DNA of 22,057 nucleotides from a virus. The stretch lies in the IMG/VR virus record IMGVR_UViG_3300009068_002504, positions 1 to 22,057 of that record; one strand, given 5' to 3'. The notes under the pieces are model-generated. The model saw only the letters and a program-made list of their open reading frames with translations. It was not told the DNA's origin and searched no databases. Shown in pieces: positions 12,953 to 20,397 of this stretch; within the stretch, counting starts at the first letter, position 1; each line of letters starts with the position of its first letter. A program made the translations under genes and the position numbers.

Positions 12953-13939
12953 TTATACTTCGATTAGTTCTTGCTCAACGTGGTTTTCTACGTCCGCGAG
13001 ATTACGCACGGCTTGATTGTAATACGACTGCTTTAGCTCTGCTCCGATTGCCTTGCGTCCGTTCAATACCGCGCCATACACCTCGCTGCCAACTCCCATA
13101 AACGGAGTAAAAACAACCTCGCCGGGATTACTCCAAAGCACGCAAGCGCGCTCAATCACGTCTAATTGCAGCGGGTGACAATGGCGCTCGTCGTCGGCGT
13201 CTCGGCTTTCCTTGTATGGGATAACTCGGTCAATGCGAATGTCGTCCCAGAAGCTGCTGGCGTATTGTCGCCAAATCCAATGACTGAAACGGTTCTCTGT
13301 CTGCTTTCCTTCGTGTCCTTTGTATTGCTGCAATTCATGCGGCATGACGCGCTCTCCGGCATATGAATGAAGCCCCGTAGGGTGTGAGACGGGAACTTTG
13401 TTTTCGCCGCACTTTTTGAACGTCAAAAGATAGTCCGCGCCCGCAACGTCGCACAGCGTTGAATCCTCTACAATCTGCGCGTGAGCTAATCCTTTCGCCA
13501 TTGTGCGGAGACGAACGCCTAGCGGCTCTTTCCAAATTGCGCGACGACCCATGAATTGAAATCCATATTTCTCATGAAGCCGAATAATGTCGCCGGGAAA
13601 GTCAATCAATCCAGTTCCGGCATTTGCCCCGCAGCCCATGCGCGCCGTCTCGCCGTTTCCTTTTCCCGGAACGTCCATGCAATGAACGGCAGTAATCCGT
13701 CCCGGTTTTGTGAGGCGAGCCAATTCCGATACCACGTATCCGTAGTGAATGAAAAACTCTGAATAGCTCGCACAGTTGCTCAAATCCATTTCGCTGCTGC
13801 TGTAATTATACAGCCCGCAAAACGGCGGAGAATAAATTGAGAGGTCAATTTTCTCGTCTGGAAGCGACTTCATCACTTCGATGCAATCGCCGTTGTATAG
13901 GGCGTATTTGTTCGTGATTGTTTGGTTGATTATAGCCAT
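12953..13939 (-). CDS. DNA methyltransferase (beta-class amino-MTase)
   Basis: A 328-residue S-adenosylmethionine-dependent DNA methyltransferase. The catalytic motif IV is SPPF (residues 37-40), preceded by the typical LYNGDCIEVMKSLPDEKID start. The cofactor motif I is near the C-terminus: TPFMGVGSEVYGAVLNGRKAIGAEL, with FMGVG at 280-284. The IV-before-I order marks the beta class, which methylates N6 of adenine or N4 of cytosine; the sequence does not decide which or name the target site. No matching restriction enzyme is seen, so it is probably a solitary phage enzyme for protecting or marking the genome. It overlaps the helicase gene by 10 bases. Confidence 0.85.
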   Translation of the reverse strand: MAIINQTITNKYALYNGDCIEVMKSLPDEKIDLSIYSPPFCGLYNYSSSEMDLSNCASYSEFFIHYGYVVSELARLTKPGRITAVHCMDVPGKGNGETARMGCGANAGTGLIDFPGDIIRLHEKYGFQFMGRRAIWKEPLGVRLRTMAKGLAHAQIVEDSTLCDVAGADYLLTFKKCGENKVPVSHPTGLHSYAGERVMPHELQQYKGHEGKQTENRFSHWIWRQYASSFWDDIRIDRVIPYKESRDADDERHCHPLQLDVIERACVLWSNPGEVVFTPFMGVGSEVYGAVLNGRKAIGAELKQSYYNQAVRNLADVENHVEQELIEV

Positions 13940-15306
13940 GTTGGTAGTTCTTGGTTGTTGGTGTGTTTGTTGGTTTTTTCAATGCGAAGCTCGTTGTTTA
14001 TTAGTTCAACAAGCCGCGCAAACATCTGTTCAGATTGAGCCGCTTTGCGGTTCATATTGGAAAGCACTCCCGCCTCGCCTTCGCTAGAAATTACGTCAAT
14101 CTTCACGGGCTGCTTTTGCCCAAAGCGCCAGCAACGCCGGATTGACTGATACCATTGTTCAAACGAGTGCGACGGGAAAAAGGTTTGATGCGCGCAATGC
14201 TGCCAATTTAAGCCAAACCCTGCGATAATTGGCTTACTTACCAGCACGCGAATTTGACCCGCCGCGAACGCCTCAAACTTTTCCTCCTTAAATTCATCGG
14301 AATCATTACCCTCAACTTCCACGGAACCGTCAATCATCTTCTCTAGCATATGTCCCTCTTCGTTAAGGTGACACCACGCCACGGCTGGCTTTCCTGTATT
14401 TGAAATAATCTCAGCGGCCATTTCGCATCGCTCTACTATTGTTCTCCTGCGCTCTGACCGCTGCTCGGCAAGTCCTACCGCTGGCATATCAAACAGAAAG
14501 TCAGGATTAGCCGTGCGAGCTTTGATTATGTGCTCCACCGTCACGAGCGGAGGCAGCTTGTAATCTCCATCTGGAAAGCCAATGTCGGACGGCTTGCGAA
14601 CAGCCCGCGCCCATGAACAAACCCATCTCCAGAAATCATGCTGCGCGTGTCCGCGAAAGCGATAAAGTCCGTGCGCGTATTCGTCTGACTTCGTATAGGT
14701 CTTTTCTGATTTCTTAAAAAAGCGGGAAATCATGTCAGTAAATCCCAAATCGCCAAGCGCCTCGCTACTTGTGCCAAGTTCGATGTAGTCGTTAGGGGCG
14801 GCGGTTGCCGTGCAAAGCAGGCGATACGGCAGTTTTTTCATAAACTCGGTAATTTGCGCCTTTATCTGTCCGTCAAAGTTTTTCAGAATACTCGACTCAT
14901 CGCATACGACTCCGCCAAAGTCTTTCCAGTCGAATTTGTGAAGCTGTTGATAGTTCGTTACCGTGATTTTGGCGGCAACGGATCCGTCGCGGGATTGCTT
15001 CGCCTCAATTCCAAACTTGCCCGCCTCTCGTATCGTTTGCGCGCCTACCGATAGCGGCGTTAAAATCAAAACTGGCTTATTGGTTTTCTCAACCACGTTC
15101 TGAGACCACACTAATTGCATCGGTGTTTTTCCAAGTCCGCAATCGGCAAAGATAGCGGAACGTCCTTTATTTATCGCCCATTCCAAAAGCGCCCGCTGAA
15201 AAGGAAAAAGGAAGTCCGGCATAAATGTCGGCGCAAATCCAAACTCTCCGCTCAGTTGCGTTTTCTGATATAGAAAGTCCTCGTATGTTTTCGGTGTGTT
15301 TTTCAT
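13930..15306 (-). CDS. SNF2-type DEAD-like helicase / ATPase
   Basis: A 458-residue superfamily 2 ATPase. Motif I is DCGLGKT (55-61), motif II is CDESS (D136-E137), motif III is TATAAPND (166-173), and motif VI QSIRRCWRFGQ (387-397) is the SNF2-like arginine motif. The second RecA domain starts around CEMAAEIISNTGKPAVAWC. It would translocate on double-stranded DNA. I place the start at the ATG at 15306, which follows an AGAGAAACACCA leader. A TTG 16 codons upstream falls inside an inverted repeat. It overlaps the methyltransferase gene, so the two are co-expressed and may work on the same DNA. Role in replication, recombination or counter-defence is open. Confidence 0.8.
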   Translation of the reverse strand: MKNTPKTYEDFLYQKTQLSGEFGFAPTFMPDFLFPFQRALLEWAINKGRSAIFADCGLGKTPMQLVWSQNVVEKTNKPVLILTPLSVGAQTIREAGKFGIEAKQSRDGSVAAKITVTNYQQLHKFDWKDFGGVVCDESSILKNFDGQIKAQITEFMKKLPYRLLCTATAAPNDYIELGTSSEALGDLGFTDMISRFFKKSEKTYTKSDEYAHGLYRFRGHAQHDFWRWVCSWARAVRKPSDIGFPDGDYKLPPLVTVEHIIKARTANPDFLFDMPAVGLAEQRSERRRTIVERCEMAAEIISNTGKPAVAWCHLNEEGHMLEKMIDGSVEVEGNDSDEFKEEKFEAFAAGQIRVLVSKPIIAGFGLNWQHCAHQTFFPSHSFEQWYQSIRRCWRFGQKQPVKIDVISSEGEAGVLSNMNRKAAQSEQMFARLVELINNELRIEKTNKHTNNQELPTWL

Positions 15307-15346
15307 TGGTGTTTCTCTAATTGGTTTCTCAAAGTTTTGACCTAGC

Positions 15347-15362
15347 TCTGACAAACGTCAGA
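15347..15362. promoter_or_regulatory. Inverted repeat upstream of the helicase
   Basis: TCTGAC (15347-15352) and GTCAGA (15357-15362) form a perfect 6-base inverted repeat around AAAC. It lies 41 bases upstream of the helicase ATG in the 131-base gap between the helicase and the zinc-ribbon gene. It could be an operator or an RNA hairpin; no T run follows. Confidence 0.3.
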
Positions 15363-15412
15363 ACAGTTGCTCGCCCGTTTACCCACCCGGATGTCTGGAC
15401 TAGCTTCCCTCA

Positions 15413-15433
15413 TTTGAAGCGGTGAAAGTTTCT
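15413..15433 (-). repeat. Intergenic element shared with 20970-21015
   Basis: On the minus strand this reads AGAAACTTTCAC directly followed by CGCTTCAAA. The same two blocks, in the same order but 25 bases apart, occur upstream of the XRE-type regulator gene. Both copies are outside the called genes, in the two larger gaps of the early operon. They may be binding sites for one regulator. Confidence 0.4.
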
Positions 15434-15437
15434 TAAC

Positions 15438-15617
15438 TCACTTGTTAAATTTCTGCGCCCGCTTGTCAATTATTATTTTGCACTTCTCGCAATTCGTCTC
15501 TTCCTTTTCGACAAGCTCGCGCCCGCAATTTTCGCAGCAAGCGGCGGCGATTGTATCGGCAAGGTCGGCGTCCATTAGGTTGTCCCAATAGCGTTCGTGG
15601 CGAGATTGCGCGCTCAT
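15438..15617 (-). CDS. 59-residue zinc-ribbon protein
   Basis: A small protein, too short for a usual cut-off: it begins MSAQSRHERYWDNLMDAD and carries a Cys4 zinc ribbon, CENC (28-31) and CEKC (43-46) with an additional Cys27. The C-terminal tail is basic (KRAQKFNK). Such ribbons bind DNA, RNA or protein partners. The ATG at 15617 overlaps the stop of the gene before it (ATGA at 15614-15617). A GAGGATGG sequence at the end of that gene can act as ribosome-binding site. The overlap pattern strongly supports it as a true gene. Role unknown. Confidence 0.65.
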   Translation of the reverse strand: MSAQSRHERYWDNLMDADLADTIAAACCENCGRELVEKEETNCEKCKIIIDKRAQKFNK

Positions 15618-15838
15618 AATCCATCCTCGCTCTCTTTGATAATCAGCCCCTCGTCAATGTAGTGCTGCAACTCTTCTTTCAGCGCATCGCGTTCGGCGGT
15701 GACTGCGGCGAGTTCGGTTTCGAGTTGTTCGATTTCACGGCACGCTTCTTCACTGTGTGCTTTGGATTGCTCTCGCGTGTCCGCCGTCATAGCGACTGCG
15801 AGATTGTCTAGGATGCGGTCTGTTCGTGGTGTATTCAT
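15614..15838 (-). CDS. Small coiled-coil protein (duplicated module)
   Basis: A 74-residue helical protein: MNTPRTDRILDNLAVAM, then a coiled coil with ELAAVTAERDALKEEL, ending ESEDGL. The coil is a near copy of the one in the gene at 11755-12012, down to 39 of 41 bases of DNA. It lies between the ribbon-helix-helix gene and the zinc-ribbon gene, joined to both by ATGA overlaps. A self-associating adaptor is possible; no function can be assigned. Confidence 0.6.
   Translation of the reverse strand: MNTPRTDRILDNLAVAMTADTREQSKAHSEEACREIEQLETELAAVTAERDALKEELQHYIDEGLIIKESEDGL
15676..15716. repeat. Duplicated 41-base coding segment, copy 2
   Basis: Second copy of the segment at 11871-11911, with two base differences (both silent or nearly so in the coil). 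See the coiled-coil genes at 11755 and 15614. Confidence 0.75.
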
Positions 15839-16023
15839 GGTTTTTGGTTTTCTAGTTCTCTGACTTTCCTTTCGAGTGATTCAAGTCTCACGAACACCGA
15901 TGCGCGGCGTTCAAGTTCAATCAAGTCGCAAATCAGGCGCGATGCGGACGAATCGCGCCTCTTCGCTTCGGCTTGTGTCCACGCGAGCAAATCGGCGGGC
16001 ATTGATACTGATGTTTTGGTCAT
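15835..16023 (-). CDS. Ribbon-helix-helix protein with coiled-coil tail
   Basis: A 62-residue protein. The N-terminal TKTSVSMPADLLAWTQAEAK is a classic ribbon followed by the first helix of the CopG/Arc type, with SASRLICDLIELER as the second helix. The C-terminal half (FVRLESLERKVRELENQK) is a short coiled coil that should help dimerise. Such proteins are DNA-binding repressors. It lies just after the helicase loader and is coupled at both ends by ATGA. The ends of its own codons (AAC CAA AAA CCA TGA) provide the leader of the next gene. The target could be the promoter of this operon, which is inference. Confidence 0.65.
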   Translation of the reverse strand: MTKTSVSMPADLLAWTQAEAKRRDSSASRLICDLIELERRASVFVRLESLERKVRELENQKP

Positions 16024-16736
16024 ATCGCTGGTTTCTCTCTAAATGACTCCCATTCGCAAGGGATGATTCCGCCGTGTTCGTTTAGTCGGGAGATAATCGA
16101 AGGACTTGTCGCCTTGGAAAACTCGCTTGCGGATTGGTTTGAAATCAAAAGCGTGTCCTTTTTCGCCGCGTAGCGTGCGTCAAGTATGTCTGACAGTATC
16201 CTATCCTTATGTCTGCTATCGTCGGCAACTTCGTGGAGTTCGTCTATAATGAGTAGGTCAAGTGCGTGCGTTAAAAACTCCCGATACGCTTCCAGCCTTT
16301 CCATGTCGGTTGTGCCAAAGTCTCCATAAAACGCTTTTAGCTTCGCTACTACGGTTGTCAGCTTCGTGTAGTGAAACCAGATACATTTCGCCGTGCCAAG
16401 TTCAGCCCATAGCCGGTCAATCACAAGCTGGCTTGCAACGTATGTTTTTCCCGTTCCTCGCGGCCCCACCAGTGCGACGATTGCGCCCTTTCCTTTTAGT
16501 GCGTTTGTCAGCTTGGAAAGCGTCCGCTTTTGCATCACGCACCGCTCATCTTTACCGTCACAAAGCCCGTCAATTTGATAGCGAAGCTCAAAACCGTAAC
16601 GTGCAAGCAGCGGACAGATTCGTGTCTTAAACTCATATCCGCGCATTATCTCCGCGCCCTTCGGCTCAATCGTCGCAAGCATCTTTTCGACGGCCTCGAC
16701 AATGCCAAGCTCGCCCGTGTGTTTTGGTTCGCTCAT
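16020..16736 (-). CDS. AAA+ ATPase, DnaC-like helicase loader
   Basis: A 238-residue ATPase with Walker A GPRGTGKT (91-98), Walker B LLIIDELHE (161-169), sensor I LLISNQ (196-201) and an arginine in SIISRLNEHG (R217) as arginine finger. Order, spacing and length fit the DnaC/IstB group, which loads a replicative helicase onto DNA. The N-terminal 80 residues, with two Cys (CDGKDERC), would bind the partner. No replicative helicase gene is found in the window, so the phage may recruit the host helicase or encode one elsewhere. It is coupled by ATGA to the preceding gene and to the ribbon-helix-helix gene. Confidence 0.75.
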   Translation of the reverse strand: MSEPKHTGELGIVEAVEKMLATIEPKGAEIMRGYEFKTRICPLLARYGFELRYQIDGLCDGKDERCVMQKRTLSKLTNALKGKGAIVALVGPRGTGKTYVASQLVIDRLWAELGTAKCIWFHYTKLTTVVAKLKAFYGDFGTTDMERLEAYREFLTHALDLLIIDELHEVADDSRHKDRILSDILDARYAAKKDTLLISNQSASEFSKATSPSIISRLNEHGGIIPCEWESFREKPAI

Positions 16737-17140
16737 AATTCTTTAGCTTTCAGTGTTGAATCTTGCGCCCATCCTTTCGGGGCGGTTTGCGAAAAAGCGC
16801 GTGCGCGGTCTAGCTCGCCGGAATAGTTATTAAGAAACGTGCAAAGGTCGCGGCGATGCCTTCCGTCCGTTTCGCCCTTTGCGCGTTCGCTTGCATAGTA
16901 TCTTTCTACAAGCTCCAAGTCTGCGTCGGCAATCACGCCCAAGGCGCGGAAGGCTTTAATTTCTGACACACTCCACGGCGTTGTTAGGCGGCGATTGTAG
17001 AGCGTTGCGATGCGTTGCGCCGTCCTAGTTGTCGGCACGTTCTTCTCGATTTGTAGCGGCAATTCCGTCTCGGCAATCACGGCTTCAAACTCTGCAAAAG
17101 CAGAGCGCAGTTTTTCCAGCGCGGCGTGCATCTTTTTCAT
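16733..17140 (-). CDS. Early protein next to the helicase loader
   Basis: A 135-residue helical protein, MKKMHAALEKLRSAFAEFE to the C-terminus. It includes TAQRIATLYNRRLTTPWSV and a later RRDLCTFLNNYSGELDRARAF. A longer frame begins with GTG at 17185, but the ATG at 17140 overlaps the stop of the gene before it (ATGA at 17137-17140), so I use 17140. The NRRL..PWS region and position directly before a DnaC-like loader suggest a replication accessory or replisome-organiser role. This is inference; I recognise no catalytic motif. Confidence 0.55.
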   Translation of the reverse strand: MKKMHAALEKLRSAFAEFEAVIAETELPLQIEKNVPTTRTAQRIATLYNRRLTTPWSVSEIKAFRALGVIADADLELVERYYASERAKGETDGRHRRDLCTFLNNYSGELDRARAFSQTAPKGWAQDSTLKAKEL

Positions 17141-17325
17141 TTGCGAACAAGCGGCAAAGATTCGTCCGCCAAGATTTGTTTCCACCGCTCAACTTCCTTG
17201 GCGGCAATCGTGATTTCGTGAAACTGCGCCGTGCCAGCGTTGAGGCGTGCGAGGTGCGATTGAGCAAGCGAAAGCATCATCTTGGCATGGCTCTCGCGTC
17301 GGGGGCGTGGTGTTTTTGGTTTCAT
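17137..17325 (-). CDS. Small basic early protein
   Basis: A 62-residue protein with a strongly basic start (MKPKTPRPRRESHAKMM) and a helical body (LSLAQSHLARLNAG, then EVERWKQILADE). A longer frame begins at a TTG at 17433, but the ATG at 17325 overlaps the upstream stop (ATGA at 17322-17325), and the earlier part would lie inside the RusA-like gene. A nucleic-acid-binding role is possible from charge alone. No family recognised. Confidence 0.5.
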   Translation of the reverse strand: MKPKTPRPRRESHAKMMLSLAQSHLARLNAGTAQFHEITIAAKEVERWKQILADESLPLVRK

Positions 17326-17699
17326 GGGTAGGTTATCGTGATTTGCGTATGCTCCGCTTCGCCTTTCGCGGCTTTGCGCTGAGTGGTTTGGATGCCGACT
17401 GTTTCCGGCGAGTCTTGTGGAATAGCACCGCAATATCTGAGACAGTCAACAAGTGCCTTCTCGCTAAGATTATCTTCGTCGCAGAGGCGTTTTCTGACAG
17501 AGACAATGCGGATAGAAATTCTTCCTGTATCCTCTTTTTCAATTTCGCCCGTTGCCAATGGCCCATCGCTAGGAGCGTATTCCAGCTTGGCAATCGTCCC
17601 GGCACAATCAGCGTGAGGCTTTGCGTAGTCTTGCGCGTTTGCGTCGATAATGGATTTGCTGGCATTTGGAAAAAGGCGCCGGATTGTGTGCGGGTTCAT
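17322..17699 (-). CDS. RusA-like phage protein (DEDN motif)
   Basis: A 125-residue protein. The second half carries RKRLCDEDNLSEKALVDCLR followed by YCGAIPQDSPETVGI. This has the Asp-rich, DN-Lys-Asp-Leu layout of RusA-type Holliday-junction resolvases, where the Asp residues bind metal. The first half (MNPHTIRRLFPNASKSIIDAN) does not look like the RusA N-terminus. I start at the ATG at 17699, which overlaps the upstream stop (ATGA); a TTG at 17711 is less likely. Almost all of this gene is also open in a second frame with a RusA-like N-terminus (17333-17665). Resolving recombination intermediates would fit the nearby ERF and exonuclease genes. Function inferred. Confidence 0.55.
   Translation of the reverse strand: MNPHTIRRLFPNASKSIIDANAQDYAKPHADCAGTIAKLEYAPSDGPLATGEIEKEDTGRISIRIVSVRKRLCDEDNLSEKALVDCLRYCGAIPQDSPETVGIQTTQRKAAKGEAEHTQITITYP
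17333..17665 (-). CDS. Overprinted frame inside the RusA-like gene
   Basis: A 110-residue frame lies wholly within the RusA-like gene, shifted by +1. Its first 55 residues look like real protein: SLTLIVPGRLPSWNTLLAMG and HWQRAKLKKRIQEEFLSAL. The P-x-x-x-N and HW-x-R-x-K pattern is the usual start of RusA-type resolvases. After about residue 60 it becomes very basic and less protein-like, which is expected where the other frame is conserved. It has an ATG at 17665 but no ribosome-binding site. It may be a separate overlapping gene, one half of a frameshifted RusA, or a chance shadow. Confidence 0.35.
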   Translation of the reverse strand: MPANPLSTQTRKTTQSLTLIVPGRLPSWNTLLAMGHWQRAKLKKRIQEEFLSALSLSENASATKIILARRHLLTVSDIAVLFHKTRRKQSASKPLSAKPRKAKRSIRKSR

Positions 17700-17998
17700 A
17701 CTGCGCGCCAAACGGCGGCTTGCTTTCCGCTGGTATTCGTTCGCGTCGTGCCCGTGTCAGCTATCTTGCCAAGCGCGAGCAATTCAGTCAGGCGAGGTCG
17801 GATTGACAAAAGTGACTTGCCAACTTCCGCCGCGCACTCGTCAGCGGTCAAGTCTTGGTGAAAGAGAACGTCTAAAACCTTTTGCCTCAACGTTGGCGCT
17901 TTCTCGCGCATCGAATCAGCAGCCGCCTTGGATGTGACGCCGCGCTTGTAGCCGGGCGCGTCGGGGTATCGGGCAAAGTCTAGTTCGGGATGGTTCAT
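17696..17998 (-). CDS. Winged-helix DNA-binding protein
   Basis: A 100-residue protein. After a flexible start (MNHPELDFARYPDAPGYKRG) comes a winged-helix fold: TLRQKVLDVLFHQDLTADEC, then AAEVGKSLLSIRPRLTELL as the recognition helix, then a hairpin (GKIADTGTTRTNTSGKQAAVW) as the wing. It should bind DNA as a regulator or replication accessory factor. The frame is open further to 18106, but the ATG at 17998 overlaps the upstream stop and follows AAGAAAACCAA, so I choose it. It is coupled by ATGA to the RusA-like gene. Confidence 0.7.
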   Translation of the reverse strand: MNHPELDFARYPDAPGYKRGVTSKAAADSMREKAPTLRQKVLDVLFHQDLTADECAAEVGKSLLSIRPRLTELLALGKIADTGTTRTNTSGKQAAVWRAV

Positions 17999-18171
17999 TT
18001 GGTTTTCTTGTTTGTCGGTTGCTGAATCGTGCTGAAATCTACTTTCGCCATTCCGCGTTTTTCGAGGAAGTTGTTTAGCGCGACGTCCATTGCAACCGTC
18101 CCGCACTTTCGGTCAAAGCGAGGATGCCCGCCGAGTCCGCTTTCGATGTATTCAGTGCCGTTGCGTTTCAT
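17995..18171 (-). CDS. Small early protein, unknown
   Basis: A 58-residue protein starting MKRNGTEYIESGLGGHPRFD and ending QPTNKKTK. The ATG at 18171 has one of the best Shine-Dalgarno sequences of the operon (AAAGGAG, six bases upstream) and overlaps the stop of the 55-residue gene before it. A longer start at 18189 would put that ribosome-binding site inside the gene. The last codons (AAG AAA ACC AAA TGA) form the leader of the winged-helix gene. No family recognised. Confidence 0.55.
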   Translation of the reverse strand: MKRNGTEYIESGLGGHPRFDRKCGTVAMDVALNNFLEKRGMAKVDFSTIQQPTNKKTK

Positions 18172-18335
18172 TTGATTCTCCTTTCCCATCTTCCTTGTTT
18201 AGTGTTTTTGTTTCCAAAGATTGCGTCTAGGAAATAGTTGTCGGTCTCTTTGCGCTTGCGGCCCGTCGTGCGGTGTGACGCTGCACTTCCCGCTGTTCGC
18301 TCTTGGCGCGGTTTGGCTGGTTTAAGGATGCTCAT
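18168..18335 (-). CDS. 55-residue basic protein
   Basis: A small gene below the usual cut-off: MSILKPAKPRQERTAGSAAS, then a basic segment HRTTGRKRKE and TDNYFLDAIFGNK, ending RWERRIK. Its stop overlaps the ATG of the next gene (ATGA at 18168-18171) and its start follows TAAAACACC, the leader pattern used in this operon. The charge suggests nucleic-acid binding or disorder. The overlap and leader make it a likely true gene; the function is unknown. Confidence 0.55.
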   Translation of the reverse strand: MSILKPAKPRQERTAGSAASHRTTGRKRKETDNYFLDAIFGNKNTKQGRWERRIK

Positions 18336-18460
18336 GGTGTTTTATTTGAAAGATTCCGCGCCGCCGATACGCTCGCCCGTGTTCACAGACGTTACACTAC
18401 GCATCGCTTCAACATCTTTTTGGTCTCGGCAAGTGGATGCACGGCGGGAAAGTGGTTCAG

Positions 18461-19048
18461 TTACGCAAAGAGTGAAGCCGCCGCGCCTAGTCCGGCGATG
18501 AACGGGGCGAATGGAATAGCAAACGGAATGTCATCGGGCGCAACGTCAAGGTAGGAATCTTTCGGCGGTTTCGGCGCAGACTTTGGCGCGGCTTTCGGCG
18601 CGTCCTCTTTCGGTTCCGCAGCGAGCTTCATCGCGGTCGCGTTCAGCTTAGCCACCATTTCGGCAACGGCATCTTTCGGCAGCGGCTTCGCGCTACTTCC
18701 GCCGCCAGCCTTGTTAAGCCATTTGATTTTCGGATACATCTTGCCGTTGTATTCCTCATCTTCAACGGTGATTTCGCACTCGCGCCCCACAAACGGGCCG
18801 GATTCAACCAGCGAGGCGAGCGCGGCAAGATTGCCATCCCATCCGAAAACATCGGCCAGCGTTTTTACAGAGCGATCTAGCGCGGCGTGCGAAAGCCATG
18901 CAATGTATTCAACGTGCGTGCCGTTACATTCGCCGCCCGTGATTTCTAGCGGCAATCGCAATCCCGGTGTGCCTGTTTTGCTTTCGCAGAACCAGCCGTT
19001 AATTGGAGCCGCAACGCGGCAAGTGTGTTTTCCTGATTTTAGTGACAT
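18461..19048 (-). CDS. SSB-like single-stranded DNA-binding protein
   Basis: A 195-residue protein. The core (residues 1-112) is beta-rich with GRECEITVEDEEYNGKMYPK, a pattern seen in phage SSB-like proteins of the DUF669 kind. An Ala/Pro/Lys-rich linker (about 145-163) follows, then an acidic PDDIPF (171-176), the tail that SSB proteins use to recruit partners. Unusually the tail is followed by about 19 mostly hydrophobic residues instead of ending the protein. It is next to the exonuclease and annealing-protein genes, 9 bases from the former, consistent with coating DNA for recombination. The family call is moderate. Confidence 0.55.
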   Translation of the reverse strand: MSLKSGKHTCRVAAPINGWFCESKTGTPGLRLPLEITGGECNGTHVEYIAWLSHAALDRSVKTLADVFGWDGNLAALASLVESGPFVGRECEITVEDEEYNGKMYPKIKWLNKAGGGSSAKPLPKDAVAEMVAKLNATAMKLAAEPKEDAPKAAPKSAPKPPKDSYLDVAPDDIPFAIPFAPFIAGLGAAASLFA

Positions 19049-19057
19049 GATGTGTGT

Positions 19058-19678
19058 TTAGTTGGTTTTGTTTCTGAGAGATTTCATAGCCTCGTCATAG
19101 CGTAGGTAAAAAGCGTTTAACGCGGCGTCTATTTTCGCCATGATTGTTTCGTCTCGGTCAACGCGCAAAACAAACGCGGGATAGCCGCGATGGTAGGAGA
19201 CGAAACGCCACCATTTCGCGCCCGTGACATAAATACTGAAATGCACTTGAGGCGCGTAGTCTTTCGGCAAGATGCCGTCCAGCAAATAGCGAACGTGATT
19301 TGTCGGCTGCGGGCATTTTATTTCCAGTCCGCCGTCCTCGCCAAGCAAGGCATCCGGCGAGCATCCGCACCGCCCATTGTCGTGCTCCACGAAGCCCACG
19401 TTGCGAATCTTCACGTCATCATGCTCCATGGCATACCAGCCGCGCGCTTCGTCCTCTAGGAGTTGCCCTTGCTCGGTTTCCCAAGTGGATATTCCGGCCA
19501 TCGGCTTTCCTTTGTATGCCTCCGCGATTTTCTCGCAAAGGTAGGTGTAAGGCGTTGCTCCGTCTCGCGCCTTAAATTCCGGCGTTACTATACGGTCAAA
19601 GTCGCTGGCGGTAACTCGCCCGACGCGCAGCGTTAGCCAATCGAGATCGCCCTGTGTTATTTCGTGAATCTTGGGCAT
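19058..19678 (-). CDS. YqaJ/lambda-exonuclease-type recombinase nuclease
   Basis: A 206-residue nuclease. It carries the PD-(D/E)XK core: an early TASDFDRI motif (24-31), then CGCSPDALLGEDGG (D109) and LEIKCP (E119, K121), then YAPQVHFSIYVTGAKWWRFV (Q144) at the end of the core. This is the YqaJ-type recombinase family that includes lambda exonuclease, which digests one strand from duplex ends. It lies 2 bases after the ERF-type gene, the normal pairing for a phage recombination module. Together with the SSB-like gene it should make and protect single-stranded ends for annealing. Confidence 0.85.
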   Translation of the reverse strand: MPKIHEITQGDLDWLTLRVGRVTASDFDRIVTPEFKARDGATPYTYLCEKIAEAYKGKPMAGISTWETEQGQLLEDEARGWYAMEHDDVKIRNVGFVEHDNGRCGCSPDALLGEDGGLEIKCPQPTNHVRYLLDGILPKDYAPQVHFSIYVTGAKWWRFVSYHRGYPAFVLRVDRDETIMAKIDAALNAFYLRYDEAMKSLRNKTN

Positions 19679-19680
19679 GG

Positions 19681-20397
19681 CTAGGCTTTGGCTTTTTCCT
19701 TGCGTGCGAGCATCGCGTCTAGCGCGTCATATCGGCTTGCGCTGATTTCTAAAAACGACTTTGCGCCAGCGTAGGAAAGGAACGCCGCCCTATCCGCGCC
19801 AACTGCTTCGACGCGCCCCAATAGCGATGCCGCCTGTTCGCCGCTGATAACTTCGCCCGTGATTCTCGCGTCGTCTTCGTCTTGCATGCAGTCTTGCCGG
19901 ATAACGATGTTCAACGCTTGCAATAGGCTATTGCGCTTCGCAGTTGTGCTCGCCTTGCAATCGGCTTGTGTCTCGCTATCAGCCTTCCCGCCAAGGCGCA
20001 CGCCAAACTTCGTTTGCTGACTGTGGCCGCTCGCGTGTCGCAAGTGACAAGTCACGGTGATTCTGTCGCCCGTCTCCTGAGAAAACGAAACGCTGAAACC
20101 GTGCTTTGATAGCAGAGGGCGCATAACGTGCATAACGTCCTCAAATTTCTCATACTTCCCGCGATTAGGAATTACAGACGTTGCCACAATGTCAGGTGTC
20201 TCCGCTTGTAGCGCGGCAAATGCGGCGTTAAAATCTCGCTCGGCTTGCCTATCCTCCATGCGTTCGTGCAGCTTCATAAGCTGCGTCATTGCCTCTGTAT
20301 TCTCGGCTGTAATGCCGCGTTCGCAGATGGTTTGCAACATCAGCGCAACGCTTGGCTGCGGCTGTTCTTTGATTGTCAGTTGGTTATTTTCGCTCAT
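19681..20397 (-). CDS. ERF-family single-strand annealing protein
   Basis: A 238-residue protein of the ERF family. The core holds FNAAFAALQAETPDI, then GKYEKFEDVMHVMRPLLSKHGFSV (80-103 in part), a beta segment ITVTCHLRHASGHS and AKRNSLLQALNI, all typical of ERF-type annealing proteins. It would pair complementary single strands for recombination, working with the YqaJ-type nuclease downstream. The C-terminal part (after about 175) is a small helical domain ending RKEKAKA. The ATG at 20397 follows a striking ACCAAACCAAACCA leader. The tRNA-like RNA lies 24 bases upstream. Confidence 0.85.
   Translation of the reverse strand: MSENNQLTIKEQPQPSVALMLQTICERGITAENTEAMTQLMKLHERMEDRQAERDFNAAFAALQAETPDIVATSVIPNRGKYEKFEDVMHVMRPLLSKHGFSVSFSQETGDRITVTCHLRHASGHSQQTKFGVRLGGKADSETQADCKASTTAKRNSLLQALNIVIRQDCMQDEDDARITGEVISGEQAASLLGRVEAVGADRAAFLSYAGAKSFLEISASRYDALDAMLARKEKAKA

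Follow-up and report, generated by a model that had tools for sequence, protein, structure and literature searches.

A candidate RusA-type nuclease split between two overlapping reading frames in viruses of bacteria and archaea

The stretch of DNA analysed here, referred to as the window, is the 22,057-nt virus record IMGVR_UViG_3300009068_002504 (positions 1 to 22,057). Two overlapping open reading frames, each beginning with ATG, lie on its minus strand, as do all features of the window located below: f0 at 17322–17699, encoding 125 amino acids, and f1, in the +1 frame at 17333–17665, encoding 110 amino acids. An earlier note on this DNA had given the same two frames with the same boundaries. 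The f0 protein comprises an N-terminal module (MNPHTIRRLFPNASKSIIDANAQDYAKP, 17616–17699), a weakly conserved spacer (17523–17615), and a RusA catalytic half (17325–17522). The f1 protein comprises a conserved N-half (LTLIVPGRLPSWNTLLAMGHWQRAKLKKRIQEEFLSAL, 17504–17617), which is overlain by the f0 spacer, and a basic tail (17336–17503), which overlaps the f0 catalytic half. Immediately upstream is a phrog_1123 gene (17696–18106), and its TGA overlaps the f0 ATG (ATGA, 17696–17699), so that translational coupling of the two is likely. No clear Shine-Dalgarno sequence for either ORF was found in the window. The locus sits in a compact recombination and replication module (12953–20397) that encodes an Erf-like annealing protein, a YqaJ/RecE-like exonuclease, an SSB-like protein, a DnaC-like loader, a helicase, and an N6/N4 DNA methyltransferase. 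Such Erf/YqaJ/SSB/DnaC surroundings are usual for the junction resolvase of a phage, and members of the RusA family share this recombination-gene neighborhood.

When the two translations were searched separately, as the earlier note had proposed, f0 reached the PHROG RusA-like resolvase family phrog_34 through residues 57–101 (E = 4e-5), bearing out the assignment of a RusA-type metal-binding half to the main frame, and f1 reached no family. Pfam gave no match in any member, and the RusA family PF05866 was not reached. R69, D74, D76, K81, D85, D96, and E116 of f0 are invariant, D74, D76, K81, and D96 across 40 sequences. In the alignment to 1q8r these four are the counterparts of the catalytic set of E. 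coli RusA, D70, D72, K76, and D91. E. coli RusA D70 is, by the title of the structures, the residue mutated in 2H8C and 2H8E. An AF2 model of f0 shows a C-half of strand-helix-strand-strand (pLDDT about 90), which begins with β2 (ISIRIVSVRKR) and carries the DEDN...K...D...D active-site pattern; where β1-α1 would be expected, there is the predicted disordered spacer (pLDDT about 58). Foldseek aligns the model with E. coli RusA 1q8r over 69 columns (probability 0.94, 2.9 Å rmsd, 29% identity, E = 0.34), and in BFVD it matches viral RusA entries. Judged as a member of the RusA family, f0 thus has the profile match, the catalytic Asp/Lys set, and the fold of the catalytic half. The β1-α1 segment is not in the same polypeptide: its candidate lies in the other frame in 66/66 and 54/55 sequences of the two families of relatives described below, and in a separate ORF in one locus, L240. 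With the N-half-like segment placed in a different frame or ORF, neither gene is a complete RusA, and it is the pair that would work like one.

Relatives were collected by a search with f0, which gave 15 viral loci, and by an alignment search, which gave 80, each read in all three frames; the f1 N-half alignment as query gave 177 confirmed stretches. A search of viral contigs with the single f1 sequence gave no match. What recurs among these relatives is the f1 consensus LTLxxPGRLPSWNxLLAMxHWxRxKxKK, in a region where f0 is poorly conserved and where quite different modules form the f0 N-termini, beginning MNPHTIRRLFPNAS, MKPGYHGILRLFPNAS, MKEIPAGYVEVSKGVYERID, or MTDAMRRCMHREP, or rich in cysteine. 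All 66 distinct sequences of the window's family have the catalytic motif in −1 phase to the f1 motif, and none has the two in the same frame. A more distant family of 55 distinct sequences, collected from locus L177 and a second search, has the motifs LPxPLPTWNRLLAM in f1 and DxDGISAKAxIDGLVxAGIL in f0. In this family the catalytic half is in f0 in 54 of 55 (50 by strict pattern and 4 by reading), the exception being L240. The f1 N-halves of the two families match each other as profiles (E = 5e-18), and two still more divergent loci, L014 and L291, have an identical layout with similar RusA-like N-half motifs. In every clade seen, the catalytic half comes with an f1 N-half at a nearly constant distance. 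No relative of the window's family was found among the isolated phages searched, and a search of isolated viruses gave one member of the distant family, an archaeal virus. A pattern scan of a genome collection produced a single match, and the C-half profile is present in 3 of 388 genomes of that match's phylum. The distant family includes Methanomicrobiales virus BK063671. At this locus (BK063671.1, 12539–12826) the deposited annotation has the f1 frame only, as a hypothetical protein (vir555_00024), and the catalytic f0 frame is unannotated.

The block formed by f1 and the catalytic half moves as a unit, because the record L111 (IMGVR_UViG_3300011114_000728) has two copies of it, about 1.7 kb apart at roughly 3030 and 4770, behind different f0 N-terminal modules. 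The f1 and catalytic halves of the two copies are near-identical, and the layout looks like cassette-like module swapping. Elsewhere, too, the modules that precede the catalytic half are short and swappable, among them FPNASxxxIxAN, PAGYVEVxKGVYER, TEEQYQDFLRRR, DLPDKYRQQAERQL, and MTDAMRRCMHREP. In the fetched loci no other protein was observed to carry an FPNAS-type module.

The f1 tail shows conservation of its own. In most members f1 stops 74–86 codons past the Trp of PSWN, even where f0 extends for 15–39 codons more. The distant family has a strongly conserved tail motif, EYLxMIRPxxSKK, of which MIRP is present in 21 of 34 tails against 0.23 expected, and its Y, R, P, and S columns have z scores of 17 to 36. 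The signal is weaker in the window's family (z of 16 for the mean). In L240 the tail, AEYDKAIRPKAKKKATRKKS, keeps the pattern EY...IRP...KK without an overlapping catalytic half, with a local score of 36 against 20.5 ± 1.4 for shuffles. The earlier note had read f1 as a RusA-type N-terminus that degrades into basic residues: its conserved segment does fit β1-α1, with a weak profile match, but a tail of fixed length that carries a motif is not a product of decay.

Are both frames under selection? The codon-level tests were tree-free, and close relatives were removed to limit the effect of kinship. Among 25 representatives with less than 72% nucleotide identity, mean variability at f0 codon positions 1/2/3 is.42/.56/.69 in the N-half, where the most variable position is position 1 of f0, that is, position 3 of f1. 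In the C-half it is.585/.695/.448, and the most variable position is position 3 of f0. Periodicity therefore changes from the f1 type, which extends over the f0 spacer, to the f0 type inside the gene, and the switch lies in a 19-nt zone (17504–17522; f0 RISIRIV, f1 FLSAL) where both frames are constrained, f1 with a z of 15 when f0 is fixed. A reciprocal randomization kept the amino acid sequence of one frame and replaced its codons by synonymous ones drawn according to the usage of the locus concerned. Keeping f0 leaves an expected f1 identity of 18% in the N-half, where 51% is observed (z 54); keeping f1 leaves an expected f0 identity of 18.5% in the C-half, where 64% is observed (z 53). Substitutions in 21 close pairs of the window's family follow the same division. 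In the N-half, 100 are synonymous in f1 and nonsynonymous in f0 (33.0 expected), and 7 are synonymous in f0 and nonsynonymous in f1 (35.6 expected). In the C-half, 82 are synonymous in f0 and nonsynonymous in f1 (32.7 expected), and 25 are nonsynonymous in f0 and synonymous in f1 (34.5 expected). Of 33 lineages, 32 have f1 open across the C-half where 4.7 would be expected, and f0 is open across the N-half in all 24 lineages of the window's family (7.2 expected). Calibration of this null on other genes gave 59 open +1 windows against 57.9 expected and, for the −1 frame, a mild excess of 200 against 153, so part of the openness of f0 may be a general effect, though not most of it. Both frames are thus open and each is constrained beyond the demands of the other, as in a true overlapping pair, and in some members each has a start of its own; of the explanations offered in the earlier note, overprinting is the best supported.

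Whether the two frames yield one fused protein or two is less straightforward. Programmed −1 frameshifting, also raised in the earlier note, would have translation begin in f1, shift by −1 in the AAA AAG region (about 17530–17545), and continue in f0 to give a fused RusA, with unshifted f1 perhaps used as well. A frameshift would preserve the −1 phase, which is kept in nearly all members, and the fused sequences do no worse against RusA profiles than f0 by itself, or marginally better (joined halves match phrog_1682 in 22 of 23 members and phrog_34 in 15 of 23, with E values down to 7e-11). Some slippery heptamer occurs in 28 of 66 sequences, and in some clades A AAA AAG is found at lysine codons at the proposed slip place. 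A start is also hard to find for f0 in L184 and L238, where f0 has a stop within the N-half and only CTG or ATT, with no ATG, GTG, or TTG, before the C-half; a frameshift would explain these two more easily. The PRFect paper places RusA/RuvC among predicted joined genes called known frameshift genes (PMC10885494), where the reference for the resolvase is apparently a ruvC paper and no direct evidence. Against frameshifting, a conserved slippery heptamer with a stimulatory element is not found: the canonical heptamer occurs in 8 of 33 lineages and is absent from the other 25 and from the window, and folding detected no downstream RNA structure (mean z −0.28). f1 remains under selection past the presumed slip site, both at FLSAL and in the MIRP of the tail, and upstream f0 is kept open with N-terminal modules of its own. 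Moreover, L240, a single virus record, has an N-half ORF of 68 amino acids that stops early, and its catalytic half occupies an ORF that is largely separate, lies in another phase, and has an ATG of its own after GAGGA. Separate starts are visible elsewhere. BK063671 has a strong Shine-Dalgarno sequence (GAGGAGG) upstream of the f1 ATG and a weaker one (AAAGGA) upstream of the f0 ATG, L098 has GAGGAGG upstream of the f0 ATG, and in L201, L206, and L251 a stop of f0 within the N-half is followed by an ATG just before the C-half, that is, before β2. A frameshift has little support, and we regard it as unlikely, if still to be taken seriously. A literature search that had most subscription journals outside its coverage turned up no description of a RusA that is split or frameshifted.

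A second alternative is that f0 is a complete RusA-like protein by itself and that the overprinted f1 protein has nothing to do with RusA, being for instance a small DNA-binding or regulatory protein that resembles a RusA N-terminus by chance. f1 alone has neither a PHROG family nor a significant match to a RusA profile, one f1 weakly matches a Cox-like excisionase (E = 0.007), and the f1 tail has its own motif. The f1 model is helical (pLDDT 71), a fold search with it gave nothing significant, and comparison of the f1 N-half profile with the N-termini of single-frame RusA proteins gave a weak match. Against this, f0 offers no candidate for β1-α1, only a spacer predicted to be disordered, and an f1 N-half goes with the catalytic half at near-constant spacing in all clades seen, L014 and L291 having similar RusA-like motifs. 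When the halves of L240 are joined, the phrog_1682 score rises from 31.8 to 37.3 bits (+5.5) and the alignment then runs through both halves. In the single-frame RusA proteins of actinophages and of genomes of the same phylum, an N-terminus of the P-P-x-x-N type is followed by the catalytic half in one chain. Position, the LPxPxPSxN-type start, the constant spacing, and the gain in L240 together suggest that f1 is the RusA N-half (β1-α1), and an unrelated f1 seems to us improbable.

That f1 is an untranslated shadow frame or the relic of a recently frameshifted resolvase, as its lack of a database family and of a Shine-Dalgarno sequence in the window might suggest, has next to no credibility: f1 openness, the conserved tail, the substitution pattern, and the shared −1 relation mean that it is neither shadow nor decayed gene. 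Reciprocal codon randomization and the substitution counts rule out a shadow frame, and a recent frameshift mutation is ruled out by a phase identical in 66/66 distinct sequences. The frameshift mutation in an old resolvase that the earlier note had envisaged is likewise refuted, since dozens of diverged phages show purifying selection on both frames of the −1 arrangement. Where a shadow would have shown +1 stops in homologues and no constraint of its own, the opposite was found (f1 open in 32/33, N-half z 54), and with the controls calibrated and the conservation deep, we exclude chance, shadow, and decay with high confidence.

The reading that we prefer, at a probability of roughly 0.55, is that the locus encodes a split, dual-coded RusA-type nuclease made as two polypeptides that assemble. 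It would be a RusA-type Holliday-junction or branched-DNA endonuclease divided between two same-strand genes in −1 relation. From its own start, f1 would give a small protein consisting of β1-α1 of the RusA fold and the basic tail, and f0, from its own start, would supply a swappable N-terminal module followed by β2 and the D-x-D...K...D catalytic half. Both proteins would be made from the window's locus and would bind each other, probably as a dimer of heterodimers, to form one putative nuclease serving the phage Erf/YqaJ/SSB recombination module. That the division of a single catalytic domain between polypeptides in overlapping frames is obligate, and has persisted among tailed viruses of both bacteria and archaea, we hold at even odds.

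How does this arrangement compare with known systems? The RusA family (PF05866; PHROGs 34, 1682, 9203, 4632, and 11894; E. coli 1Q8R/2H8C) shares with f0 the strand-helix-strand-strand fold, the D-x-D-N...K...D...D pattern, and the profile and fold matches. However, its known members are single-frame proteins with β1-α1 in the same chain, whereas here that segment is in the overlapping frame. As in overprinted same-strand viral genes, two frames of one stretch of DNA are both under purifying selection. One account describes overlapping genes as coding two functionally unrelated proteins (PMC6195259), unlike the products here, which are apparently complementary parts of one domain. The −1 frameshift genes of the phage tail assembly chaperone pair and of IS transposases likewise keep a −1 relation of two ORFs over long periods. 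Unlike those, the present genes have no conserved slippery site, overlap over most of their length, and are constrained in both frames through the junction, and one member is in another phase.

The products of overlapping genes are as a rule assumed to be unrelated. Those of the present pair seem to be complementary pieces of a single nuclease fold, in an arrangement that is conserved across a very wide phylogenetic span and has escaped annotation, as the uncalled catalytic half of BK063671 illustrates. If confirmed, the locus would be a natural split enzyme with built-in co-production and a new case of dual coding in which the relation between the partners is directly testable. It would also be a warning that gene finders lose the resolvases of uncultivated viruses. 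The catalytic half can itself be interrupted: in L166 (IMGVR_UViG_3300032305_000789, locus from about 3150 on) an insert splits it directly after the DEDNLCEK codons. The insert contains a long ORF with a NUMOD-like stretch, HPKGMLGKHHSQKSKDAIS, and looks like a homing-endonuclease element within the resolvase gene.
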